9,456 nucleotides of DNA, from the NCBI GenBank assembly GCA_903930505.1, contig CAIYYQ010000039.1, positions 1 to 9,456 of the forward strand, written 5' to 3'. The translations under genes and the position numbers were made by a program. The stretch's first letter is position 1; every line of letters begins with the position of its first letter. This stretch comes from Methanobacteriota archaeon (GTDB lineage: Archaea > Thermoplasmatota > E2 > DHVEG-1). The notes beneath the pieces were generated by a model. That model was not told the origin of the DNA, ran no database searches, and saw only the letters and a list, made by a program, of their open reading frames with translations. Below are positions 1 to 9,456 of this stretch, piece by piece.

Positions 1-1860
1 CATGATTGCATACGAATAGTTTTTAGCGTTTTGTTCATCTAAAGAATTTGGTATTGAATTTATTAAGCTCGATGCACCATTTTCCAGGGTTGTTCCATCA
101 ACTGAACGAGAATCGTCAGGGGTTTTAATTAAAACAAGGAATTCTTTTATTTCAGATGTTGCGTTGTTTTCGTCTGTCGCGCATAATTGAATGGCGTATG
201 ATCCAGGGGATGCCCATGTATGCATTGCTGTGATGACTGTTCCGCTTGGGAAAAAAGGTGTTGTTGTATTCGTATGATCTCCCCAGTCAAAATAATAGGA
301 GATATTATCTTGATCGGGATCTGTGGTAACAGCGATGTACGTATATTCATTGTTGATAAATCCGGATGATGGCCCTTTGAGTTCTGGTTTTTTCGGTGGA
401 CGGCTGGTCATGATAAGAGCAGAGGTTGTATCTGTATCAGCGTCACCATTGTCATTTGTCACCGTTAATTGAACTACATATGTTCCATTTTTTTGATAAA
501 TATGTACTGGCGATTGACCGGTTCCTGTGGTGTTATCGCCGAAATCCCAGATGTATTCGATGATGTTTCCGCTGCTATCAGAACTCTTCGATCCATTAAA
601 ACAAATAGGCTGATATATGTATCCGTAATACGGTCCACCTGTATTAGCGATAGGAGGATCACAGGTGATTTGTGCGATCGTTGAAACAGTGCTTGATCCT
701 CCATTATTATCTGTTACCGTTAACGTCACTGCAAAGGTACCGATCCGTGAATACGTATGAGTTATGGATTTACCTGTTGCAACAGTTCCATCGCCGAAAT
801 CCCAAGTATAGTTGACAACGAACCCGTCCGTGTCATGGCTTTGTGATCCATCAAAGCAGATTGGTTCTTGTATCCATCCAAAATAGAGGGTTTCACCTGC
901 GTCTGCAACTGGAGGAATGTCGATGAGTAGGGTTGTTTGAACTTCCGCTGACCAAAACCCAGAATAATTTTCTACTTTGAAAGAAATGGTATGTGTTCCA
1001 GGGAATAAATTAGCGGTGCTAAACGATTGCTTTGTACTGAGATTTCCATTGATATTTGATCTCCAACTGTAGTTAACAATAGAATCCTCTGCTGGGTCTT
1101 TTCCGTGTCCTTTGAATGATACAGACTCTCCTTTGATCCCAGGGCTTGGTGAAATTTCATCGATAACCGCTAGGGGAACTCGAGAAGATACGACATGTAC
1201 CGTGTGGGTTGCTATACTATTTCTTCCTTCGATATCAACGACAGTTAACGACACCGAATAGTCTCTGGCTGTTGTATACACGTGCATTGGTTCTTCTGCT
1301 TCCGAGGAGGTTCCATCGCCGAAATTCCAAGAAAATGAAGGATTCAATGATGTTCCAGATGTAGAACGCTCGTCACGGACATCTATATCTTTTGTGATAT
1401 CTCCGGGTTCATCTTTTTGGTTGCCATCTATCACCTTATTGTCGTTATTGTTGTCACATAGACTGATTTTTCTAAAGGATTCTGTGGAAGAAAAAAAAGA
1501 AATGCCACCATCAGGAAGATTACTGGATGTACTACAGCTCTCAAAATTATTGCTACATTTAGCAGTGAAGGCAGTAGGTTCTCCGATCAGCGGGGGATTT
1601 GGATTCCAAGAGAAAGCCAACTCAGAGTTTCCATTTAAAGATGAGGGATCATTCCCTGCCCCATTATCAATTGTTTGATCCATATTATCAGCAGGTTGAA
1701 TCAGAGTTTGAGTGTGTATACTACCAGCGGATCCAAAAGATGAACACGGAAGAACTAAAGAGAAGATAATGGAACTGAAAAAAATAATTTTTAATATAGA
1801 TGGAACTTTTTTTGTAGTATAGATGCGGTAATCTCTTGTTACGCTCTTTTTATACACCAT
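1..1860 (-). CDS. Exported PKD-repeat surface protein, C-terminus outside window
   Basis: The frame is open for 620 codons from ATG at 1860 down to base 1, with no stop, so the gene continues past the window. Residues about 17-45 form a basic then hydrophobic export signal (KKVPSILKIIFFSSIIF...). After it come PKD or PKD-like beta-sandwich units: clear ones around residues 175-225 (WNFGDG), 316-400 (WDFGDG) and 403-485 (WDFGDN), a divergent one at 228-314 and another at 487-580 (FDWGDH). PKD domains usually mediate protein-protein or protein-surface contacts outside the cell. Residues 136-163 are rich in Asp and Asn (DNNNDNKVIDG), which could bind calcium. Many NxT/NxS sites suggest glycosylation. 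GAGGAG lies 3 bases before the ATG and 6 before an adjacent GTG at codon 2, so the GTG may be the true start. No catalytic domain is visible in the part seen, so the function (adhesin, S-layer-associated protein or exoenzyme) is open. Confidence 0.88.
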   Translation of the reverse strand, partial: MVYKKSVTRDYRIYTTKKVPSILKIIFFSSIIFSLVLPCSSFGSAGSIHTQTLIQPADNMDQTIDNGAGNDPSSLNGNSELAFSWNPNPPLIGEPTAFTAKCSNNFESCSTSSNLPDGGISFFSSTESFRKISLCDNNNDNKVIDGNQKDEPGDITKDIDVRDERSTSGTSLNPSFSWNFGDGTSSEAEEPMHVYTTARDYSVSLTVVDIEGRNSIATHTVHVVSSRVPLAVIDEISPSPGIKGESVSFKGHGKDPAEDSIVNYSWRSNINGNLSTKQSFSTANLFPGTHTISFKVENYSGFWSAEVQTTLLIDIPPVADAGETLYFGWIQEPICFDGSQSHDTDGFVVNYTWDFGDGTVATGKSITHTYSRIGTFAVTLTVTDNNGGSSTVSTIAQITCDPPIANTGGPYYGYIYQPICFNGSKSSDSSGNIIEYIWDFGDNTTGTGQSPVHIYQKNGTYVVQLTVTNDNGDADTDTTSALIMTSRPPKKPELKGPSSGFINNEYTYIAVTTDPDQDNISYYFDWGDHTNTTTPFFPSGTVITAMHTWASPGSYAIQLCATDENNATSEIKEFLVLIKTPDDSRSVDGTTLENGASSLINSIPNSLDEQNAKNYSYAIM

Positions 1861-1930
1861 ATGCTCCTCATATCCTAGATTTGACTGCTTCTGCAGACCA
1901 TTTTTCTATGACCTTGTTTCGGTTATCATC

Positions 1931-1939
1931 TTATTTAAA
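1931..1939 (-). promoter_or_regulatory. TATA box for the PKD protein gene
   Basis: On the minus strand this reads TTTAAATAA, close to the archaeal TATA consensus. It would place transcription start near 1909 and give a leader of about 50 bases that contains the GAGGAG ribosome site. The upstream bases are not a strong BRE. Confidence 0.5.
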
Positions 1940-2014
1940 CCATGTTGTACAACCGGTACCACGTTTCTTTACAGCGCTTATTCAAAAGTCACTCTACAAA
2001 GAACACTATCGAAG

Positions 2015-2023
2015 AAAAAAAAA
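2015..2023 (-). terminator. Oligo-T terminator after the helicase gene
   Basis: A run of nine T on the minus strand lies about 45 bases past the helicase stop and upstream of the PKD gene's TATA box. Archaeal RNA polymerase terminates at such T runs without needing a hairpin. Confidence 0.5.
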
Positions 2024-2065
2024 CATGCAATATCTGTAAAATGAGAAATAAATGATCCAAAAAGA

Positions 2066-4918
2066 TTAAGGGGAATCCCAGAATCCCCGTGTCCTCGCAT
2101 AGGTTAACTCTGCTTTGAGAATATCGCGGAAGAATTTCATCTGAATCTCCTCAGAAATTTGAAGATCCATTTTATTGTATCTGCGGAGAATGCGTGAAGC
2201 TGTATCAGGACCGATACCACGGCCCATAAGTGCAAACACCGCATAATTCCCATAGGCGAGAACAAGGCTTGCGTTCTTATGCAGTCGGCTTATCTCTTTT
2301 ATTTGCTCTTTTGTTTTCTCTTTTTTTGTTAAAAGTTTTGCGAACTCCCGGTTATATCGTGCTAACACTGCGACCTTGATGGCACCACACCGAGAACACA
2401 GCGGTTGTTTTCCCATACGTCCCACGGTTGTCGTCCATGTATGATGACAGTTAGTACATACTAAAAGGATGTCTGTTTCTTCTAAGCGTTTTTTTAATGC
2501 CAGAAGAATCGTTTTATCTGCTCGTTGAGGAACCATGAGGCCACGGATGGTTTCTAATTCTGCAAGAGCAAGAGGCGAAAGTCGTTGGAAATGAATCGTA
2601 ATTTTTCCATTCTGAATATCCTGAAGTACCTGCTTTGTTTTTTCTACGTCCATGCGTTCCCAGATAAGTTTATCGACCGCTTCATCAAAGATCGGCGATC
2701 GTTCGAAAAGCATGAGGAGTTTACGTATTCCCACGTTTTTGTAATCAAAATCTTTTTGCAATGCACCAAATTTCCGTGCTACGCGGACGAGTTGCCAGCG
2801 CAGAAACGTTGAGTTCCGCAGAATCGTTTCAAGGATATGATCAAGTGAGTCCGGAGTTGTCTGTACGAGAATATCTTTTATGCGAGATGATGGGATGCGG
2901 CTGGGAAGCTCAAGAGTGATCCGGTACGCATCGCTGTTGATGCCGACGCTTTCACCAAGAGATTGCGCAAGGAGCGCAGAAATCAGTCGTCCTAACGTTT
3001 CATTGACTTTTGTCCCAAAACAAGCATTGATTACAATACTTTTTCCTTCTGTTTCTATCGTGATTGTTGCGTCATCAGGAACAATAAACCCTTGTTTTTT
3101 TTGATTTGCTATTTGTTCAAGGAATATCTGAAACGACTGTATATCGCAGGGGTATCCGTGGATTGTTTTTCCTTCAGAAGCATACCGGCGGAGTGCACCA
3201 ACTTCTTTTGCGACCTCATAGGGAATAGGGATGTCTTCTCCAACCCACGAGGGAACGGTTCCTATTTCTTTAATTGGTGAAACAAGGATGCTGTCTTCAT
3301 CTCGTTTAACAATCATCCATGACCTCCCGCGAAGGATAAACGTTGCTCCTTCAAACCCATAATTTAACACGAAGCTTTCATCGAGTTTCCCGATTTTTGT
3401 GCGAGAACTGATGTCGACGACAACATATGATTTCTCATCAGGAATCATCGATATGTTATCTAAAAAGTAGTATCGTGATTTCATACGTTTTGAAAGCAGT
3501 GATGGATCCATGTCATCGACCCAGATTGTTCGTTGATTTTGCAGTTGATTCACACTCATTTCAAATAGATCAAAAGAAAGTGTGTGAAATGGATATGATC
3601 TGGTGATGATATCAAAGATTTTTTTCCTTTCGATTTGCCCATATTCAAGAACAAGAGAAATAATCTGATTGGATAACACAGATAAGGGGTTCCGTCGCAC
3701 CATGAATTGTTCTAACTCTCCAGCGAGAGCTCGTTTCGCGATCACCATGCTTTCCGCAAGATCTTCAGGGTTTGTTGCAATGATGATTCCTTTTGAGGTT
3801 TTGCCGACGCGATGGCCGGATCGTCCGATTCGCTGGACAAGCCGTGTCACCTCTCGGGGGGAATTGTACTGTATGACAAAATCTGTGTCCCCGACATCGA
3901 TCCCGAGTTCAAGGGATGATGTACATATCAGGGATTTTAGTTTTCCTGTTTTAAAATCGTTTTCTGCTTCGACGCGAGCATTTTTTGAAAGGGAACCATG
4001 GTGAACACCAATCGGCATATCCTCTTTCCACAGATGGAGACGGGTAGCAAGAATCTCTGCACCATCTCGTGTGTTAACAAAAAGAAGGGTGGATACATGA
4101 TCATCAATGAGTTCTTTGCATCGTCTCAGAGACGCAAAAGAAATCGGTTCCATAGAAAATTGATTTGCATTCGTGTAATCTTTTGATTCAATAGATGGTA
4201 ATTCAACAGTGATGTCTATTTGTTTTGTGACATCGATTTCAAGCACAGATACCTCGCGAAATGTCCCATTTTGCATTCCACCAAGGTACCGGGCAACTTC
4301 ATTTGGTAAACCCACGGTGGCAGAAAGACCAACACGCTGAAAACTATGACCAGCATCCTTTGTGAGCTCCTCGAGTCGTTCCAGAGCAACCGCAAGTTGC
4401 GCCCCTCGTTCATCACTTGCAAGTTCATGGACTTCGTCGATGATCACCCACTGTACGGTCTTCAGATATATTCGGAGTTTTTTGCCGATGAAAAGAATCT
4501 GCAGTGTTTCTGGCGTCGTAATCAGCATATCTGGTGGTGTTCGTGTTTGTTTTGCTCGTTCCGCCTGTGAGGTGTCTCCATGACGGACCGCAACCGTCAT
4601 CCCCAATGATTTCCCCCATTCAAAGGTTCTCCGAAGCATATCACGGTTCAACGCTCGTAATGGGGTAACATAAAGGATAGATATCCCCGCAGATTTTTTC
4701 TCTTCGGATTGCATGTTTTTGAAATCTAAGAAGCGATGAAAAATCGGGAGAAGCGCAGACTCTGTTTTCCCTAATCCTGTAGGGGCAATTAATAAAACGT
4801 TTTTGTCTTCGAGGATGACGGGGATCGCTTTTTCTTGGGGTTCTGTCGGTTCTGTTATGTTTCTTAAACGCAGAAGATTTTGTATCTGGGGGTTGAAACG
4901 ATCAAAAACTGAAGTCAT
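2066..4918 (-). CDS. Lhr/Ski2-like superfamily 2 helicase with C-terminal zinc ribbon
   Basis: This 950-residue protein is an ATP-dependent nucleic acid helicase. Walker A is APTGLGKT (45-52), Walker B is DEVH (161-164) and motif III is SAT (199-201). Motif V is around TSSLELGIDVG (333-343) and motif VI is QRIGRSGHR (362-370). The wording around these motifs (DEVHELASDERGAQLA, VGLSATVG) is typical of the Lhr group (COG1201) and related archaeal Ski2-like helicases. The middle third (about 390-800) fits the winged-helix and accessory domains of that group. C821-x2-C824-x16-C841-x2-C844 is a zinc ribbon, and GRGIGPDTASRIL (899-911) resembles a helix-hairpin-helix nucleic acid contact. Family members act in DNA repair or RNA processing; I cannot decide which from sequence. 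No Shine-Dalgarno precedes the ATG, but a TATA box sits about 27 bases upstream, so the mRNA is probably leaderless. Confidence 0.93.
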   Translation of the reverse strand: MTSVFDRFNPQIQNLLRLRNITEPTEPQEKAIPVILEDKNVLLIAPTGLGKTESALLPIFHRFLDFKNMQSEEKKSAGISILYVTPLRALNRDMLRRTFEWGKSLGMTVAVRHGDTSQAERAKQTRTPPDMLITTPETLQILFIGKKLRIYLKTVQWVIIDEVHELASDERGAQLAVALERLEELTKDAGHSFQRVGLSATVGLPNEVARYLGGMQNGTFREVSVLEIDVTKQIDITVELPSIESKDYTNANQFSMEPISFASLRRCKELIDDHVSTLLFVNTRDGAEILATRLHLWKEDMPIGVHHGSLSKNARVEAENDFKTGKLKSLICTSSLELGIDVGDTDFVIQYNSPREVTRLVQRIGRSGHRVGKTSKGIIIATNPEDLAESMVIAKRALAGELEQFMVRRNPLSVLSNQIISLVLEYGQIERKKIFDIITRSYPFHTLSFDLFEMSVNQLQNQRTIWVDDMDPSLLSKRMKSRYYFLDNISMIPDEKSYVVVDISSRTKIGKLDESFVLNYGFEGATFILRGRSWMIVKRDEDSILVSPIKEIGTVPSWVGEDIPIPYEVAKEVGALRRYASEGKTIHGYPCDIQSFQIFLEQIANQKKQGFIVPDDATITIETEGKSIVINACFGTKVNETLGRLISALLAQSLGESVGINSDAYRITLELPSRIPSSRIKDILVQTTPDSLDHILETILRNSTFLRWQLVRVARKFGALQKDFDYKNVGIRKLLMLFERSPIFDEAVDKLIWERMDVEKTKQVLQDIQNGKITIHFQRLSPLALAELETIRGLMVPQRADKTILLALKKRLEETDILLVCTNCHHTWTTTVGRMGKQPLCSRCGAIKVAVLARYNREFAKLLTKKEKTKEQIKEISRLHKNASLVLAYGNYAVFALMGRGIGPDTASRILRRYNKMDLQISEEIQMKFFRDILKAELTYARTRGFWDSP

Positions 4919-4941
4919 CTGTTTCGATGCAATAGTCAGTA

Positions 4942-4949
4942 CTATTTAG
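4942..4949 (-). promoter_or_regulatory. TATA box of a probably leaderless helicase transcript
   Basis: CTAAATAG on the minus strand is preceded by an A-rich BRE-like stretch (GAAAAAAAG). Its centre is about 27 bases from the helicase ATG, the usual TATA-to-start distance in archaea, so transcription would begin at or next to the start codon. Confidence 0.5.
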
Positions 4950-4965
4950 CTTTTTTTCTAACGCG

Positions 4966-4998
4966 AAAAAAAAAGGAGTATTGGGAAAAAAAATTCCC
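4966..4998 (-). terminator. Terminator of the Alba gene
   Basis: A short inverted repeat, GGGAA/TTCCC (4983-4987 and 4994-4998) with a six-base loop, is followed on the minus strand by nine T (4966-4974). It lies 20-50 bases past the Alba stop and just upstream of the helicase promoter. Confidence 0.55.
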
Positions 4999-5018
4999 GT
5001 GATTACTATTGTATCTAT

Positions 5019-5354
5019 CTATTTCTTTTTGGCTAAGCAGATTTCCATGGAAGAGACATTAGATGTTCTGCCTTCTTCGTTGGTGACTGCTTCAGTACCA
5101 ATGTTGATGCTTTTCACGACAAGATTGGTCATGAATCGATTTCGTGTAATCTCCGCTGCATCAACCGCCCGTGTGATTGCGCTCCCACGTGCTTTCAGGG
5201 TGACTTCATCTGATTCACTTGAGTTGAACTGCGCGATAATTGCGGTCACGTAGTTCATCGGGGGTTTGCTCCCAACGAAGATGACATTTTCTTCCATTTT
5301 TCGGTCATGGGTTTTTTTTTCTTTTGGTTCTTTAGGTGTTTCTTCTTTGTTCAT
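5019..5354 (-). CDS. albA: Alba-family DNA/RNA-binding chromatin protein
   Basis: Alba is a small dimeric chromatin protein that coats DNA and also binds RNA. The core (residues about 22-110) carries the family signatures: [14 protein letters not shown] (23-36), [22 protein letters not shown] (53-74) and a C-terminal strand [16 protein letters not shown] (95-110). The DNA-contacting lysine corresponding to K17 of Sulfolobus Alba is present (K30), but the neighbouring K16, the acetylated residue in Sulfolobus, is serine here. An N-terminal tail of about 20 residues rich in Lys and Glu precedes the core and lengthens the protein to 111 residues, against about 90 usual. A second Met at residue 20 could start a tail-less form. 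GAGG at 5363-5366, 8 bases before the ATG, supports the longer start. The gene appears monocistronic, with its own TATA box and terminator. Confidence 0.95.
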
Positions 5355-5423
5355 ACTCTTTTCCTCACAGAGTTACAGTTTCAGCTGTATCACGGTGTTA
5401 TCGTATTCAAAACGGTTTTTTCA

Positions 5424-5431
5424 CTTATAAA
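5424..5431 (-). promoter_or_regulatory. TATA box of the Alba gene
   Basis: TTTATAAG on the minus strand, preceded by GCAAACG (BRE-like), would start transcription near 5402. This leaves a leader of about 48 bases containing the GAGG ribosome site. Confidence 0.6.
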
Positions 5432-5452
5432 CGTTTGCATGCGGTTTTGTAG

Positions 5453-5506
5453 ATGATAAAATAAAGGAAAATTAATAGTCTCTCATTGAAAATCAAAGGA
5501 AAATCA
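5453..5506 (-). terminator. T-rich termination region after the regulator operon
   Basis: Downstream of the 94-residue gene, the minus strand holds several TTTT and TTTCCTTT tracts (for example near 5487-5503 and 5453-5475). They are suitable for archaeal T-tract termination before the Alba promoter. No hairpin was found. Confidence 0.35.
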
Positions 5507-5544
5507 TCTATTTTGTCGCAGAACCAAACAGGGTATTCTCGTTT

Positions 5545-5829
5545 TTATCCATAGTAATGTGTTGGCTCTTTTTCTTCCTCTGTTTTCTCTTTTTTAATGC
5601 TATCGAGAACATCGATTGCTAGAATTGCGTGTAATGGGATAATCCGGATTGTTCCTTTTCGTTCCTCATGAATTTCTCCAAGTTCGATAAGGACTCCACC
5701 TTCATCTATTCCAAGGGTAGCAAATCCACGGAATACTCCTTCTGTTTCAAGTGCGGTATCACGTCCACCAATGGAAAATATTCGATATCGCGACCCTTCG
5801 GTTAATTCCAAGTCTTCTTTTTTATTCAT
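5545..5829 (-). CDS. Small beta-rich protein of unknown function
   Basis: This 94-residue protein belongs to no family I can name with certainty. Residues 11-75 alternate hydrophobic and polar residues with glycine turns (YRIFSIGGRDTALETEG, then GVLIELGEI, then TIRIIPLHAILAIDVLD). This looks like a small five-stranded barrel, and an Sm-like fold is possible but unproven. The C-terminal tail (about 77-94) is charged and ends in HYYG. There is no signal peptide or membrane segment. The ATG overlaps the upstream regulator's stop codon by 8 bases (ATGAATAA), and AAGGG lies 5 bases before it, so the two are translationally coupled and probably act together. The product could be an RNA- or ligand-binding partner of the regulator, but that is inference from position alone. 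Confidence 0.8.
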   Translation of the reverse strand: MNKKEDLELTEGSRYRIFSIGGRDTALETEGVFRGFATLGIDEGGVLIELGEIHEERKGTIRIIPLHAILAIDVLDSIKKEKTEEEKEPTHYYG

Positions 5830-6271
5830 GCGATCCCTTCTGTTGTTTTTCTAATAATGTTTGGAGATGTTCAACGGTTTTACCGTAATTCTCCACTGCC
5901 ACTTTAATGTGCGCCTCGACAAAGGTCCATGCTTTATGAAAGTTTCCATATCGCAAACGATATGCTTTGCGGTTCTGCTGAGTTATCTCATCGAATATAT
6001 GAATCTCTTCGAGAATATCAAAACCTTTTAATTTATTGAGATGTCGGTATACCGTTGGTTTTGAGGTGTGTAACGTCTGCGCGATTTCTTCAACAAACCA
6101 TGCTTTCATGGGATGTTTTAAAAAGAAATCAGCGAAAATCTTGTAAGGGATCGTTGGATCTGAGCCTTTTGACAAGTATCCGATCTGTTCGAAAAACTTT
6201 TTAGTAAGTATATCAGGATCCTCTTCGCCGATAAGCGGCGTATTACTCACTACTTGGATCTCAAACACCAT
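5822..6271 (-). CDS. Winged-helix transcriptional regulator
   Basis: This 149-residue cytoplasmic protein has an HTH of the ArsR/winged-helix type at about residues 57-82: FVEEIAQTLHTSKPTVYRHLNKLKG, where TVYRHL is the recognition helix. A wing follows (IHIFDEITQQNRKAYRLRY). The last third (about 110-143) is helical and probably dimerises. The N-terminal 50 residues have no assigned role. I chose ATG at 6271 because AAGG lies 8 bases upstream. A GTG at 6286 would add five residues and sits where transcription should begin, so a leaderless GTG start remains possible. It is the first gene of a pair with the 94-residue protein, immediately downstream of glutamine synthetase but with its own promoter. 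The target genes are unknown; a nitrogen role is suggested only by position. Confidence 0.85.
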   Translation of the reverse strand: MVFEIQVVSNTPLIGEEDPDILTKKFFEQIGYLSKGSDPTIPYKIFADFFLKHPMKAWFVEEIAQTLHTSKPTVYRHLNKLKGFDILEEIHIFDEITQQNRKAYRLRYGNFHKAWTFVEAHIKVAVENYGKTVEHLQTLLEKQQKGSHE

Positions 6272-6306
6272 AAGCAAAACCTTCACGACACAGAATACAA
6301 GATGAA

Positions 6307-6315
6307 TTTATAATA
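6307..6315 (-). promoter_or_regulatory. TATA box of the regulator operon
   Basis: TATTATAAA on the minus strand lies about 25 bases upstream of 6286, the predicted transcription start. This gives a leader of about 15 bases if translation starts at the ATG at 6271. Confidence 0.5.
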
Positions 6316-6326
6316 TTTACTTAACT

Positions 6327-6351
6327 AAGAAAAGAAAGAGAAATAAGAAAG
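6327..6351 (-). terminator. Pyrimidine/T-rich terminator after glutamine synthetase
   Basis: On the minus strand this is an uninterrupted T/C tract except for one or two A (CTTTCTTATTTCTCTTTC...). It lies 20-45 bases after the glutamine synthetase stop and just before the next promoter. It has no hairpin and is the archaeal T-tract type. Confidence 0.45.
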
Positions 6352-6371
6352 TATAGGCGTAACCTTTATAC

Positions 6372-7739
6372 TTATACGATGGGGAGGTATCGTTCTATTT
6401 CCCATTTTGTTACCTGCATGCGATATTCAGCCCATTCTTTCTGTTTCACATGCAAGAAATTCTCGAATACATGTTCACCCAATATCTCCTTGACAAACGT
6501 ACTTTCACGCATAATAGAAAGTGCATGACCAAGACTATCAGGAAGTTGTCCAATTCCATTTTCGTCTCTTTCTTTAGAAGAAAGCGCATAAATGTTTTTT
6601 TCAACTGGTGCCGGGGGCTCAAGTTTATCTTCGATTCCTTTGAGACCTGCAGCAAGCATCACCGCAAACTGTAGATATGGATTTCCTGAGAGATCAGGGC
6701 TTCGTAATTCACAGCGTGTACTTTTTTTCCGTCCTGAAGGTATACGAATGAGCGCGCTGCGGTTGCTACTCGCCCAGGAAATATACGTGGGTGCCTCATA
6801 CCCGGGAACAAGTCGCTTATACGAATTTACCGACGGATTTAATACAGCGGTGATTTCTCGTACATATGTCAATAATCCTGCGATGAACTGTCGTGCAAGT
6901 GTGCTGAGTTGATTGTCAGAATCAGGATCATAAAATGCATTGTTTCCATCAGTAGTAAACAGCGACAAATGTGTATGCATTCCCGACCCGTTAACACCAT
7001 ACAATGGTTTGGGCATAAACGACGCATGAAGATTATGTTTTGTGGCGATAACCTTGGTGATATATTTGAGCGTAATAACGCGATCCGCTGTTGTAAGTGC
7101 ATCTGCATAGCGGAAATTCATTTCATGTTGACCACGTGACACTTCATGATGAGAAGTATATGTTGTTATTCCCATTTCATTAAGGGCAAGAGATATATCT
7201 GCACGGACACCTTCAGCGAGATCGCGATGGGAAAGATCAAAATAACCAGCTGTATCGTTTGGGGTAAGTGTAGAGTTTTCACCGTCTTTTTTGAAGAGGA
7301 AAAATTCACATTCAGGACCGGTATTGTAGAGATATCCTAAATCATGAACTTTTTTCACCATTTTTTCAAGTACGTATTTGGCGTCACCTGGGAATCGTTT
7401 TCCATTGGGCTCGTAAATATCACAGTTGAGTTTTGCTGTTTTTCTCTGCTCAATTGTTTCCGGGAGGATCACGAAACTGTGTGGATCAGGTTTTGCGATT
7501 TTGTCTGATTCTTCAATCGTTGCATAACCTGCAATTGACGATGCATCAAAAGGCATACCTTCATCTAAGGCTTCTTCAAGTCTGCTTACGGGTATGACGA
7601 TGTTTTTTGGTGTTCCTAGGATGTCAACGAACTGTAGACGTATGAAAAGAACATTTTGCTCTCGAACATTATTCACTAACGTAAGTACAATATCGTCATT
7701 TTTTATCTTCTCCTCAGCCGATTTACATTCAATATCCAT
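6372..7739 (-). CDS. glnA: Glutamine synthetase, type I
   Basis: This enzyme makes glutamine from glutamate, ammonia and ATP, the entry point of nitrogen assimilation. From ATG at 7739 it has 455 residues, usual for GSI. The N-terminal beta-grasp domain holds VLFIRLQFVDILGT and FDASS. The catalytic domain shows the metal-binding glutamates in GPECEF and HHEVSRGQHE, the ATP/glutamate site in MPKPLYGVNGSGMHTH, the flap glutamate in NSYKRLVPGYEAPTY and the late RCELRSPD block. The adenylylation tyrosine motif of the beta subtype is absent, so it is of alpha-like organisation. The arginine used for glutamine feedback in Bacillus (R62, in the block FVRIEESD) is threonine here (YATIEESD). Seven codons upstream is a TTG that could open a longer frame, but AAGGAGG lies 8 bases before the ATG, which fixes the start. 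The gene is monocistronic. Confidence 0.97.
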   Translation of the reverse strand: MDIECKSAEEKIKNDDIVLTLVNNVREQNVLFIRLQFVDILGTPKNIVIPVSRLEEALDEGMPFDASSIAGYATIEESDKIAKPDPHSFVILPETIEQRKTAKLNCDIYEPNGKRFPGDAKYVLEKMVKKVHDLGYLYNTGPECEFFLFKKDGENSTLTPNDTAGYFDLSHRDLAEGVRADISLALNEMGITTYTSHHEVSRGQHEMNFRYADALTTADRVITLKYITKVIATKHNLHASFMPKPLYGVNGSGMHTHLSLFTTDGNNAFYDPDSDNQLSTLARQFIAGLLTYVREITAVLNPSVNSYKRLVPGYEAPTYISWASSNRSALIRIPSGRKKSTRCELRSPDLSGNPYLQFAVMLAAGLKGIEDKLEPPAPVEKNIYALSSKERDENGIGQLPDSLGHALSIMRESTFVKEILGEHVFENFLHVKQKEWAEYRMQVTKWEIERYLPIV

Positions 7740-7747
7740 CTCTGTTG

Positions 7748-7754
7748 CCTCCTT
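7748..7754 (-). promoter_or_regulatory. Strong Shine-Dalgarno site of glnA
   Basis: AAGGAGG on the minus strand with an 8-base spacer to the ATG at 7739. It lies inside the longer TTG-initiated frame and so decides the start in favour of the ATG. Confidence 0.85.
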
Positions 7755-7784
7755 AATCAAAAATAGGTCAAGCGCCTACCAATG

Positions 7785-7793
7785 CATATACAA
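7785..7793 (-). promoter_or_regulatory. TATA box of glnA
   Basis: TTGTATATG on the minus strand would start transcription near 7762, about 23 bases before the ATG. A second candidate, TTTTAATA at about 7801-7808, is less well placed. Confidence 0.45.
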
Positions 7794-7815
7794 ATTAGTG
7801 TATTAAAAGTTAATT

Positions 7816-7820
7816 GAAAT
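7816..7820 (+). repeat. Left copy of 5-base direct repeat (GAAAT)
   Basis: GAAAT immediately outside the left inverted repeat matches GAAAT at 8961-8965 immediately outside the right one, as expected for a target-site duplication. Five bases alone would be weak; the exact placement at both ends gives it weight. Confidence 0.6.
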
Positions 7821-7841
7821 GAGGGGCGCTAATTAGCCAAT
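7821..7841 (+). repeat. Left terminal inverted repeat
   Basis: GAGGGGCGCTAATTAGCCAA plus T reads inward from the left end. It contains the palindrome GCTAATTAGC (7828-7837). It matches the reverse complement of 8940-8960 except at one base (C against G). It lies about 30 bases upstream of the glnA TATA box. Confidence 0.8.
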
Positions 7842-7870
7842 AAAAGAAAATAGCACATCAATTTTTTAGT

Positions 7871-7894
7871 AAAAAGAAGCATTACCACATGCTT
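7871..7894 (-). terminator. Hairpin plus oligo-T terminator of the small regulator gene
   Basis: On the minus strand a perfect six-base stem, AAGCAT/ATGCTT (7877-7882 with 7889-7894), has a six-base loop. It is followed by CTTTTT, and the stem starts two bases past the regulator's stop. It insulates glnA from readthrough of the cassette. Confidence 0.65.
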
Positions 7895-7896
7895 AT

Positions 7897-8124
7897 TTAT
7901 CTTTGAATTACTTTGATGAATGTTTTTCCTTTGTCGGTCAAATTGTATACTATCTGCCTATCACAGATTTTTTTCTCTATAAGACCTAATTCCTGTAAAT
8001 CTTTGAGATGGCCATATATCGTCGACAAGGGTAACGTAAGAGATAAAGCTAATTGATAACCGTGAGACGGTTTTTCCTCTATTTCCAGGAGAATTTTCCT
8101 TTTTGTTGAGCCGATTAGTTCCAT
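7897..8124 (-). CDS. Small winged-helix regulator (ArsR/PadR-like)
   Basis: This 75-residue protein is almost entirely one winged helix-turn-helix domain. It begins MELIGSTKRKILLEIEEKPS, followed by the HTH (HGYQLALSLTLPLSTIYGHLKDLQELGLIEKK, about 21-52, with TIYGHL in the recognition helix) and a wing ending VYNLTDKGKTFI. It lacks a sensor domain and probably acts as a dimer. It lies divergently from the proline-rich exported protein across a 75-base spacer containing a perfect inverted repeat, so that gene and itself are the likely targets. No clear Shine-Dalgarno precedes the ATG. A TATA-like TTATATAG (about 8160-8167, minus strand) would give a leader of about 14 bases. It sits inside the inverted-repeat-bounded segment, followed by its own hairpin terminator. 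Confidence 0.85.
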   Translation of the reverse strand: MELIGSTKRKILLEIEEKPSHGYQLALSLTLPLSTIYGHLKDLQELGLIEKKICDRQIVYNLTDKGKTFIKVIQR

Positions 8125-8138
8125 TTACGGAAATAATG

Positions 8139-8146
8139 TATAAATA
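8139..8146 (+). promoter_or_regulatory. TATA box for the proline-rich protein gene
   Basis: TATAAATA, preceded by purine-rich GGAAATAATG (BRE-like), would start transcription near 8168, upstream of the ATG at 8200. A second candidate, TATATAA at 8161-8167, would start near 8190. Both argue against a longer frame beginning at 8146, which would lie inside the promoter. Confidence 0.5.
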
Positions 8147-8156
8147 TGTCGAACAA

Positions 8157-8188
8157 AAACTATATAACGAGAAAGTTCGATATAGTTT
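8157..8188. promoter_or_regulatory. Candidate operator between the divergent genes
   Basis: AAACTATAT (8157-8165) and ATATAGTTT (8180-8188) form a perfect 9-base inverted repeat with a 14-base spacer, centred on 8172/8173. The left arm contains TATATA elements usable on both strands. A second inverted pair, TCGAAC (8149-8154) and GTTCGA (8175-8180), overlaps it. A dimeric winged-helix protein bound here would block both promoters. Confidence 0.6.
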
Positions 8189-8199
8189 GCAGTGAGAAT

Positions 8200-8766
8200 A
8201 TGAAAAAAATCATGATAATGACGCTCGTAATGGTGTTAATCGGAACAATGACTACTGTTGCTGTTGCGGCGATTGTAGAGCCGGTGCCAGAGGAAATAAA
8301 GGCGCAAATCCCGCCGGTGTTTACATTACCTGACCCGAGTCAATTATTCCCCTATCCGCCAGAATTAACCCTGCCAAATACATATTATGTTGATGTGCCA
8401 TCAGACATGCACATCTGGCCATGGTTTACTGTTTATAATCCGCAGCAACCAATCTATCGAATGCCAATCATCGGACGACACTTCCCATGGATACCGATCT
8501 ACAAACCCATTACACTACCGATAACTGTTCCCATTCAACCCCCAATAACTGTCCCCATTCCACCGCCACAGTGGCATATTACAGAAGGAATGGAGACGGG
8601 CATCTCTGAACAGATCAGCGGACCTGTGCAATTGCCAGATCCTGCGCCTCTGACAATAATCGGTAGTTCTGTGCAACAGTCAATTGCCAGTGGCCCTATA
8701 TATCAATCACCAGTTATTGGCGGTCCAATAGAGATGCCGATTGTTGTTCCTTTAGAAGGAAACTGA
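8200..8766 (+). CDS. Proline-rich exported protein, no recognised family
   Basis: From ATG at 8200 the protein has 188 residues. The N-terminus MKKIMIMTLVMVLIGTMTTV followed by AVAA is a classic signal peptide, cleavable near residue 24. The mature part is about one fifth proline, also rich in Ile, Val and Thr, and has no cysteine. Spacing such as LPITVPIQPPITVPIPPP (106-123) suggests an extended or polyproline-type segment; aromatic patches (WPWF, FPWIPIY) lie around 73-101. There is no membrane anchor, sorting motif or enzyme signature. An in-frame ATG 54 bases upstream is rejected because it falls at the promoter and would bury the signal peptide. GTGAG lies 3 bases before the chosen start, a poor ribosome site, so a short-leader transcript is likely. 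It is divergent from the small regulator and may be its target. It could be a surface or secreted structural protein, but the function is unknown. Confidence 0.75.
   Translation: MKKIMIMTLVMVLIGTMTTVAVAAIVEPVPEEIKAQIPPVFTLPDPSQLFPYPPELTLPNTYYVDVPSDMHIWPWFTVYNPQQPIYRMPIIGRHFPWIPIYKPITLPITVPIQPPITVPIPPPQWHITEGMETGISEQISGPVQLPDPAPLTIIGSSVQQSIASGPIYQSPVIGGPIEMPIVVPLEGN
8521..8568 (+). repeat. Two tandem 24-base repeats inside the proline-rich gene
   Basis: Units 8521-8544 and 8545-8568 are identical at 21 of 24 positions (each begins ATAACTGT, then CCCATTC). They encode ITVPIQPP and ITVPIPPP, pointing to growth of the proline segment by in-frame duplication. Confidence 0.75.
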
Positions 8767-8928
8767 AAGAATCAATAGAGCAAATTATAGTGCCTGAAGT
8801 AATTGTATCTTTTCCATATCACTTATATTTCTTTTCGAGCGATAATCACCCGAATGCGACGCTAAAAATCATCACCCTTAAAAGAGACAGAACCCATTTT
8901 CGTTAGTTTTAAATGCCATGTGAACAAA

Positions 8929-8938
8929 GGCTAATTAG
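8929..8938. repeat. Extra partial copy of the palindromic end motif
   Basis: GGCTAATTAG repeats the core of the right terminal repeat 14 bases further in (next copy at 8943-8952). The left end has no such second copy, so the ends are asymmetric. Confidence 0.7.
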
Positions 8939-8939
8939 A

Positions 8940-8960
8940 ATTGGCTAATTAGCCCCCCTC
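8940..8960 (-). repeat. Right terminal inverted repeat
   Basis: Reading inward on the minus strand this is GAGGGGGGCTAATTAGCCAA plus T, matching 7821-7841 at 20 of 21 positions. It contains the 12-base perfect palindrome GGCTAATTAGCC (8943-8954). It lies in a convergent intergenic stretch (8767-9029) that otherwise shows only T-rich tracts near 8808 and 8829. Confidence 0.8.
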
Positions 8961-8965
8961 GAAAT
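8961..8965 (+). repeat. Right copy of 5-base direct repeat (GAAAT)
   Basis: Directly abuts the right inverted repeat and equals 7816-7820 outside the left one. Confidence 0.6.
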
Positions 8966-8981
8966 ATGAAAAGATTTTGGT

Positions 8982-9456
8982 TGTGGTATCCCGAATTAAC
9001 TTCCTTCTGGTTTTTTGATAAAGGCATATTCAAGTCTCTCTTTTGTTCTTTTCTCTTGTCTTGTCAAGGAATGCTTGGTAAGGGGTTCGTAAATGTCCAT
9101 TTTCCAAGCTGCTATGAGGTCGTTTGAAGTTATAGTAGTATATTGTTTCATCCCAGTTTGGGAAATGTTTTCTGAGTTGTTTGATGGTTTGCCCTGCTCG
9201 TTCCACTTTACCATTGGATTGCGGATGTTTGACCCTGGCTTTGATATGGTGTATTCCTTGTTGTTTGAGCATCTGTTGAAATGCATTCATTTTTGGTGTT
9301 GGACAGTTGTTTCGTGGAAGGGATGTGAATTGTGCGCCATGGTCGGTCATCAGCTGTTTAGGTGTTCCATAGCTATCGATCGATTCGAGGAGTACTTGTG
9401 CTGCGTTTTCTGCGGTTGCATTTGAAAATACTCCATAACCAGTGATGAGCCGGGAG
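8982..9456 (-). mobile_element. IS481-like insertion sequence, 3' part only
   Basis: The transposase 3' end is followed by 48 bases and then a sequence that reads TGTGGTATCCCG on the plus strand from 8982. A terminal TGT is usual for IS481-type ends, so 8982 is my best guess for the element's edge. The other end is outside the window, so the inverted repeat cannot be confirmed. Confidence 0.5.
9030..9455 (-). CDS. IS481-family transposase, C-terminal part
   Basis: The last 141 residues of a DDE (rve/integrase core) transposase; the frame is open to the window edge, so the N-terminal HTH and the first catalytic aspartate are outside. The visible start, SRLITGYGVFS, is the strand that follows the first aspartate in this family. 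The second aspartate is in LMTDHGAQFTS (D38 of the fragment) and the catalytic glutamate is in HPQSNGKVERAGQT (E85). The C-terminus (YYYNFKRPHSSLENGHLRTPYQAF) is the usual family tail. The D-to-E spacing of 46 residues is longer than the 35 of retroviral integrases because of an insert around SLPRNNCPTPKMNAFQ. No internal stop or frameshift is seen, so this part is intact. Assignment to IS481 rather than IS3 is likely but not certain. Confidence 0.88.
   Translation of the reverse strand, partial: SRLITGYGVFSNATAENAAQVLLESIDSYGTPKQLMTDHGAQFTSLPRNNCPTPKMNAFQQMLKQQGIHHIKARVKHPQSNGKVERAGQTIKQLRKHFPNWDETIYYYNFKRPHSSLENGHLRTPYQAFLDKTREKNKRET

Follow-up and report, generated by a model that had tools for sequence, protein, structure and literature searches.

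The window, that is, the whole stretch of archaeal DNA of 9,456 nucleotides that was analysed, contains upstream of glnA a cassette of 1,140 bp (7821-8960) with inverted repeats at both borders. These repeats, at 7821-7841 and 8940-8960, are 21 nt long, are complementary at 20 of 21 positions (95%), and represent the longest inverted pair among those listed for the region 7300-9456. A search of the window with the 21-mer, in which position 7 could be G or C and up to 3 mismatches were tolerated, recovered only the two cassette ends, and with the same tolerance none of 200 dinucleotide shuffles of the window gave a match. The core of the repeat, GGCTAATTAGCC, is a perfect dyad. Directly outside the repeats, GAAAT is found on the left (7816-7820) as well as on the right (8961-8965) and probably represents a target-site duplication; as a yardstick, random pairs of 5-mers from the window agree with a frequency of 0.0016. 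Both the inward-facing repeats and the GAAAT on their outer side are present as described in the original prediction. The G+C content of the cassette (0.40) is the same as that of the whole window (0.41) and so gives no compositional hint of a foreign origin.

Between the repeats only two genes stand out, a regulator and a divergently oriented gene for an exported protein. The regulator (7897-8124, minus strand) has a length of 75 amino acids, little beyond a winged helix itself, and matches the Pfam families PadR (PF03551; 30.7 bits, cut-off 27) and HTH_5 (28.2 bits, cut-off 22), which agrees with the predicted small winged-helix regulator and places a PadR winged-helix domain in the protein. 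It has 58 relatives, and its top match among solved structures is 5duk. The regulator had also been credited with its own terminator, and a hairpin followed by a T-run does lie 3' of the gene (7877-7894, minus strand), but it is short, contains just two G-C pairs and was not among the calls of a terminator scan, so that this feature is weaker than described. Between the two genes, at 8150-8185, is a predicted shared divergent promoter with the probable operator CGAACAAAAACTATATAACGAGAAAGTTCGATATAG, an imperfect form of a dyad of which four related units have the exact version. The other gene (8200-8766, plus strand) encodes the predicted proline-rich protein of 188 amino acids with a hydrophobic, signal-like N-terminus. 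Its start at 8200 is located 75 nt from the ATG of the regulator gene and is preferred because this spacing agrees with the 68-88 nt found in 7 related units. Among about 5.8 billion proteins no relative of the exported protein was detected at E<=0.001, except for itself on 3 contigs.

The closest relative found for this locus is present in a MAG from Lake Pavin labelled Euryarchaeota (L001), whose Lhr-type helicase is 91% identical. L001 is collinear with window positions 1850-7667 (90.6% identity over 5.8 kb), and a weaker alignment runs on to position 7812, 8 nt outside the left repeat. In L001 a gene with a glutamate-synthase domain directly adjoins glnA, the short gap beside glnA contains neither the cassette nor an insertion sequence, and the regulator was not found in the genome by searches with which 7 of the 45 genomes examined from the same family gave a match. 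L001 thus has the locus without the cassette. The 16 nt past the right GAAAT resemble L001 about 25 nt beyond the left flank (AAATATGA-AAAGATT versus AAATATGAGAAAAATT); since 1.2% of 5,000 shuffles were equally good and the DNA is of low complexity with a second alignment possible, this empty-site match is suggestive only. GAAAT is not present at the corresponding site of L001, and of the empty site with a single GAAAT that had been anticipated, the locus without the unit was found and the clean single pentamer was not.

To the right of the cassette lies a neighbouring insertion sequence with an rve_3 transposase (8982-9456, minus strand), which runs past the end of the window. Its start at 8982, which would be 16 nt beyond the right GAAAT, was deduced from 15 alignments to this element, of which 8 start at 8981-8982, 4 at 8970-8975 and 3 further in. 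A query with the rve_3 element matched 8 of 45 genomes; as this query included the R-type end of the cassette described below, the matches in 7 of the 8 genomes correspond to the insertion sequence and that in G015 to the R-type end alone.

In the 45 genomes of the family of the sibling L001, the regulator gave 9 matches at E<=1e-8, and a survey of the phylum at E<=1e-14 found it in 7 of 389 genomes, all of them among those from the family search. With a regulator profile, 40 stretches of viral_contigs fit a pattern and none was confirmed. When 9 units were compared, namely the window (with the start at 8200) and 8 loci, the truncated L026 being excluded, a divergent gene was located 68-88 nt from the regulator ATG in 8 of them, with a product that starts strongly hydrophobic; only L025 is a regulator unit without such a gene. 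The divergent exported proteins are dissimilar, as only 4 of 28 pairs were related at a BLAST E<0.01 and none of these pairs involved the window protein. A TATA-like box is retained in the intergenic region, and the dyad ATATAACGA-n6-TCGTTATAT overlaps it. L021-L024 have this dyad in its exact form, the window and L020 have imperfect versions, and in L027 and L028 it is weaker. Judged from these comparisons, the regulator and the divergent exported gene form a separate recurring module that exists independently elsewhere and that would act as an autoregulated switch, with a single site through which the regulator controls itself and the exported gene. The divergent exported protein of L021 (G036:C46) ends in what we take to be a PGF-type sorting tail, and some products of the module may be anchored at the cell surface.

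The ends of the cassette are found at further places. In the 45 family genomes the 21-mer with up to 3 mismatches gave 9 matches in 6 genomes, and the reversed control gave 1; the match at L015 (G017:C117), which lacks further boxes, was excluded, and 8 ends, again from 6 genomes, were kept. In the 52 genomes searched for the order, a 16-mer with up to 1 mismatch matched 8 times, in 6 genomes, and the reversed control had no match; these 8 include the dropped G017:C117 and miss one of those of G040. A wider search in 80 genomes of the class added no genome, so that the ends were confined to one archaeal family, and the exact end sequence had no match in viral_contigs or genome_contigs, nor did a shorter form of the end in viral_contigs. 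The 8 ends are of two types. Four L-ends (L011, L014, L017, L019) carry three CTAATTAGC-like boxes each, and four R-ends (L012, L013, L016, L018) carry two boxes, the second at shorter spacing, followed in 3 of the 4 by another block that contains TTAACG or CTAACG and whose place is taken in L018 by an IS200 insertion. Pairwise identity among five R-ends, including that of the window, is 0.86, 1.0 and 0.78 in the first three inner bins of 10 nt and 0.21-0.32 in the six outer bins (60 nt), and among the four L-ends it is 0.82, 0.88, 0.50 and 0.93 inside and 0.27-0.40 outside, the identity dropping to background at the outer G. The anticipated recurrence of the ends at unrelated loci, with conserved insides and background outsides, is thus observed. 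The R-end of L012 interrupts a gene after about 48 codons, and 45 of the first 49 residues of this cut gene are shared with a gene that is intact in L016. From their sequences, the ends of the cassette are assigned to a family of mobile ends with two end types. At L019, a gene near the L-end (8400-8930) gave a sub-threshold match to the HEPN-type pEK499_p136 (25.3 bits, cut-off 26.6).

The right end of the window cassette (8886-8960, minus strand) is by sequence a typical R-end, the fifth of the set, with the terminal repeat at 8940-8960, a second box at 8929-8938 and the conserved inner block TTTAAAACTAACGAA. The left end (7821-7841, plus strand) is an L-type end with one CTAATTAGC box and without the extra boxes present in related L-ends. 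Past the box, it matches the sequence from the third box of L019 onward at 14 of 16 nt, as did 12 of 100,000 shuffles, and over a longer stretch at 15 of 22 positions. It has the appearance of an L-end from which recombination between box 1 and box 3 has removed two boxes.

The distribution of ends and regulators bears on another reading, in which the regulator inside the cassette uses the palindromic repeats as its operators, or in which such repeats serve genes in general as upstream regulatory sites. The perfect dyad in the repeat core would suit an operator, and three ends (window left, L014 and L018) are located 62-97 nt upstream of an outward-facing gene; however, the ends of L011, L013 and L017 face the 3' ends of genes and, as mentioned, that of L012 cuts one. 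Furthermore, 8 of the 9 other regulator loci are without CTAATTAG within the 2.5-3.2 kb examined per locus, and among the 8 other end loci the DNA searched showed a regulator at one only; this DNA included no more than 413 and 752 nt of interior at L013 and L017. With a conserved dyad of its own, the module has no need of the terminal palindromes as operators, and as it recurs separately, they are unlikely to serve it in this way. Together with the background identity from the outer G onward, these data make an operator function very unlikely, and the pattern is not that of a lone operator upstream of promoters, the situation that had been named as speaking against a transposon.

Only one of the 9 regulator loci, L020, which is the same place as L014, has an adjoining L-end as in the window. 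There the L-end is located 110 nt outside the stop codon of the regulator gene (76 nt in the window), and the cargo beside the regulator, a lipoprotein of 366 amino acids, differs from that of the window. No partner end was detected for any of the 8 other ends in the surrounding DNA, which in G013 included about 90 kb on each side and in other cases offered little interior before the contig end (0.4 kb in L013, 0.75 kb in L017, 3.3 kb in L016). An L-end facing an R-end was therefore seen in the window as a single instance among the loci examined, and the other complete copies with different flanks that had been anticipated were not found. Among the derivatives of insertion sequences, solo inverted repeats are an accepted category (PMC3129680). 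The two ends of the window might be unrelated solo ends that came to lie 1.1 kb apart in inverted orientation by chance, or as relics, around a regulator/exported-gene pair that was already resident; this would fit with the partnerless ends and with the occurrence of the regulator module elsewhere without ends. Such a coincidence is hardly probable, given GAAAT at both ends with the low frequency of identical random pairs, the same order of L-end and regulator in L014, and the sibling L001 genome that is without the regulator.

The arrangement of repeats of inverton-like length flanking a gene for an exported protein would also be expected for an invertible, phase-variable segment, in which a site-specific recombinase acts on the 21-bp repeats, turns the unit around and thereby switches the surface protein, and the contig of L013 contains a phage-integrase-type recombinase gene as well as its R-end. 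Leaving aside the rve_3 transposase of the adjacent insertion sequence, no recombinase was recognised among the 5 window proteins scanned. The exported gene has its apparent promoter inside the unit, and flipping would therefore not switch this gene. The direct repeat GAAAT outside the ends and the existence of two distinct end types with extra boxes, which occur partnerless elsewhere in the DNA examined, likewise do not fit with inversion, and this explanation is considered very unlikely.

Taken together, the recurring ends, the L001 locus without the unit and the distribution that differs from that of an operator support the original prediction of a cargo-bearing, non-autonomous transposon; that the window cassette is such an element seems highly probable, and for any named mechanism our confidence is lower. 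The cassette would have inserted upstream of glnA, creating the 5-bp duplication of GAAAT. The unit would have been moved by a transposase, probably a DDE enzyme provided in trans, that bound to the CTAATTAGC boxes. The dyad at the shared promoter would be the binding site of the PadR-like protein, which would repress itself and the exported protein until a signal is received. As one of three boxes of the L-end was kept, the present copy may be poorly mobile.

A complete insertion sequence with the same ends, which the original prediction had envisaged, was found at none of the loci around the ends, and none of 13 interior genes of L011, L012, L013, L016 and L019 matched a transposase family in Pfam. 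At L018 an IS200-like Y1 transposase gene (9799-10248) is located just inside the R-end and is the sole Y1 gene beside an R-end. IS200/Y1 was rejected as the mover: the Y1 gene of L018 is nested, its downstream hairpin recurs at a copy of the Y1 element in G019 (L030), and this copy is without such boxes in the 3.2 kb examined, so that the linkage of a Y1 transposase to ends expected of IS200/IS605 elements is not seen. A Tn3 transposase was also rejected, with a match at E<=0.001 in 1 of 7 genomes and none of the 7 over the cut-off, the control being positive in 2 of 14 genomes. The gene behind this weak match (22.6 bits, cut-off 24) encodes the DDE_Tnp_1 transposase of L014 (4205-5623). A different candidate inverted pair lies at its borders, and no link of this transposase to the cassette ends was found. 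A search for the C-terminal domain of Mu/TnsB (Mu-transpos_C) gave no match, its control likewise matching nowhere.

Mobile insertion cassettes (MICs), first described as MIC231 in Bacillus cereus, are bracketed by inverted repeats, have no transposase gene nearby, usually cause a target duplication and carry one or more passenger genes, and MIC231A1 is mobilised in trans by IS231A, according to passages of PMC3913671. The window cassette is similar in its repeats, its duplication and its passengers: two repeats that agree at 20 of 21 positions bracket it, it contains passenger genes and no transposase, and GAAAT adjoins it on either side, a duplication seen in this one copy of the element. 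It differs from MICs in its archaeal host, in its asymmetric multi-box ends, in its cargo of a regulator and an exported protein, and in that no cognate insertion sequence comparable to the IS231A of MIC231A1 is known. The best reading is that the cassette works like a MIC moved in trans, showing three of four defining features; the fourth, a cognate insertion sequence, was not detected in the loci examined. Titles in the literature on mobile insertion cassettes in archaea described no archaeal one, and titles matching the 10-mer CTAATTAGCC included no mobile element among the matches listed.

Other known systems share some of these features. TIMEs, which derive from Tn3, have G-rich ends. In a description of those from Pseudomonas (PMC4133298), TIMEs have no transposase, may carry other genes and possess 38-bp inverted repeats of the Tn3 type; TIME-RES and TIME-COMP made 5-bp target duplications, with 6 bp also mentioned. 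The cassette resembles TIMEs by its lack of a transposase, its 5-bp duplication (GAAAT), its G-rich ends and its carriage of other genes, and differs by a repeat of 21 bp instead of 38 bp of the Tn3 type and by the lack of a Tn3 transposase over the cut-off in the 7 genomes searched. In the case of Tn7/Mu-like transposons, ends contain several transposase-binding boxes in unequal numbers per end, begin with TG and finish with CA, and insertion creates a 5-bp duplication; the cassette shares the unequal multi-box ends and the 5-bp duplication, whereas the ends of its family begin with GRGGG. MITEs are known from Sulfolobus, Halobacterium, Haloquadratum and others among the archaea, as mentioned in PMC10969869, and have a size of about 30-300 bp as given in PMC4133298. 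Like them the cassette is a non-autonomous inverted-repeat element, but it has 1,140 bp and two genes. As stated in a passage of a 2019 survey of thaumarchaeal mobile elements (PMC6563490), composite DNA transposons with passenger genes were known in bacteria and undetected in archaea. If an exported protein and its regulator travel jointly on an archaeal cassette, transposition gives uncultivated archaea a way to redistribute envelope functions, and the presence of similar ends at unrelated places in related archaea suggests an ongoing traffic of genes for exported proteins. The end sequences of the cassette provide a concrete handle for finding the missing transposase.

A second unit at L014 (G017:C106; 2753-4181) also lacks a transposase and carries a gene for a single exported FG-GAP/PKD protein. 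Its ends consist of GGCTTTGCC(C/T)GTAAAGTC with further boxes inside at a spacing of 18-20 nt, and it is flanked by the 9-bp direct repeat GCTAGTTAA at 2744-2752 and 4182-4190, the left copy of which contains the stop codon of the lipoprotein cargo gene. The pattern of these ends was matched 13 times, in 8 of the 45 genomes, with no match for the control, and was also seen at L091-L099. This unit and the window cassette indicate that transposase-less cassettes with exported cargo arose from at least two end families in the lineage; the two end families are unlike in sequence, and exported proteins are common anyway in these genomes. It can tentatively be speculated that the lineage holds several families of transposons with asymmetric multi-box ends, mobilised by a transposase yet to be found and specialised in exported or cell-surface cargo, some with a portable switch, which would amount to transposition-driven shuffling of surface proteins. 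In G027 both ends of the second family stand back to back without cargo, forming a shell of about 86 bp (L096:12262-12347, approximate; G027:C87) in which no direct repeat was recognised by eye. Box arrays of the second family at L091 (8627 and 14738), L092 (5845 and 7778) and L094 (1297) are preceded by the same CGAAAAAGGG, which appears as CCGAAAAAGGG in 4 of the 5. At L091 8627 the preceding sequence pairs as a hairpin with the outer GCAAAGCC, and at L092 5845 it does likewise with one mismatch.
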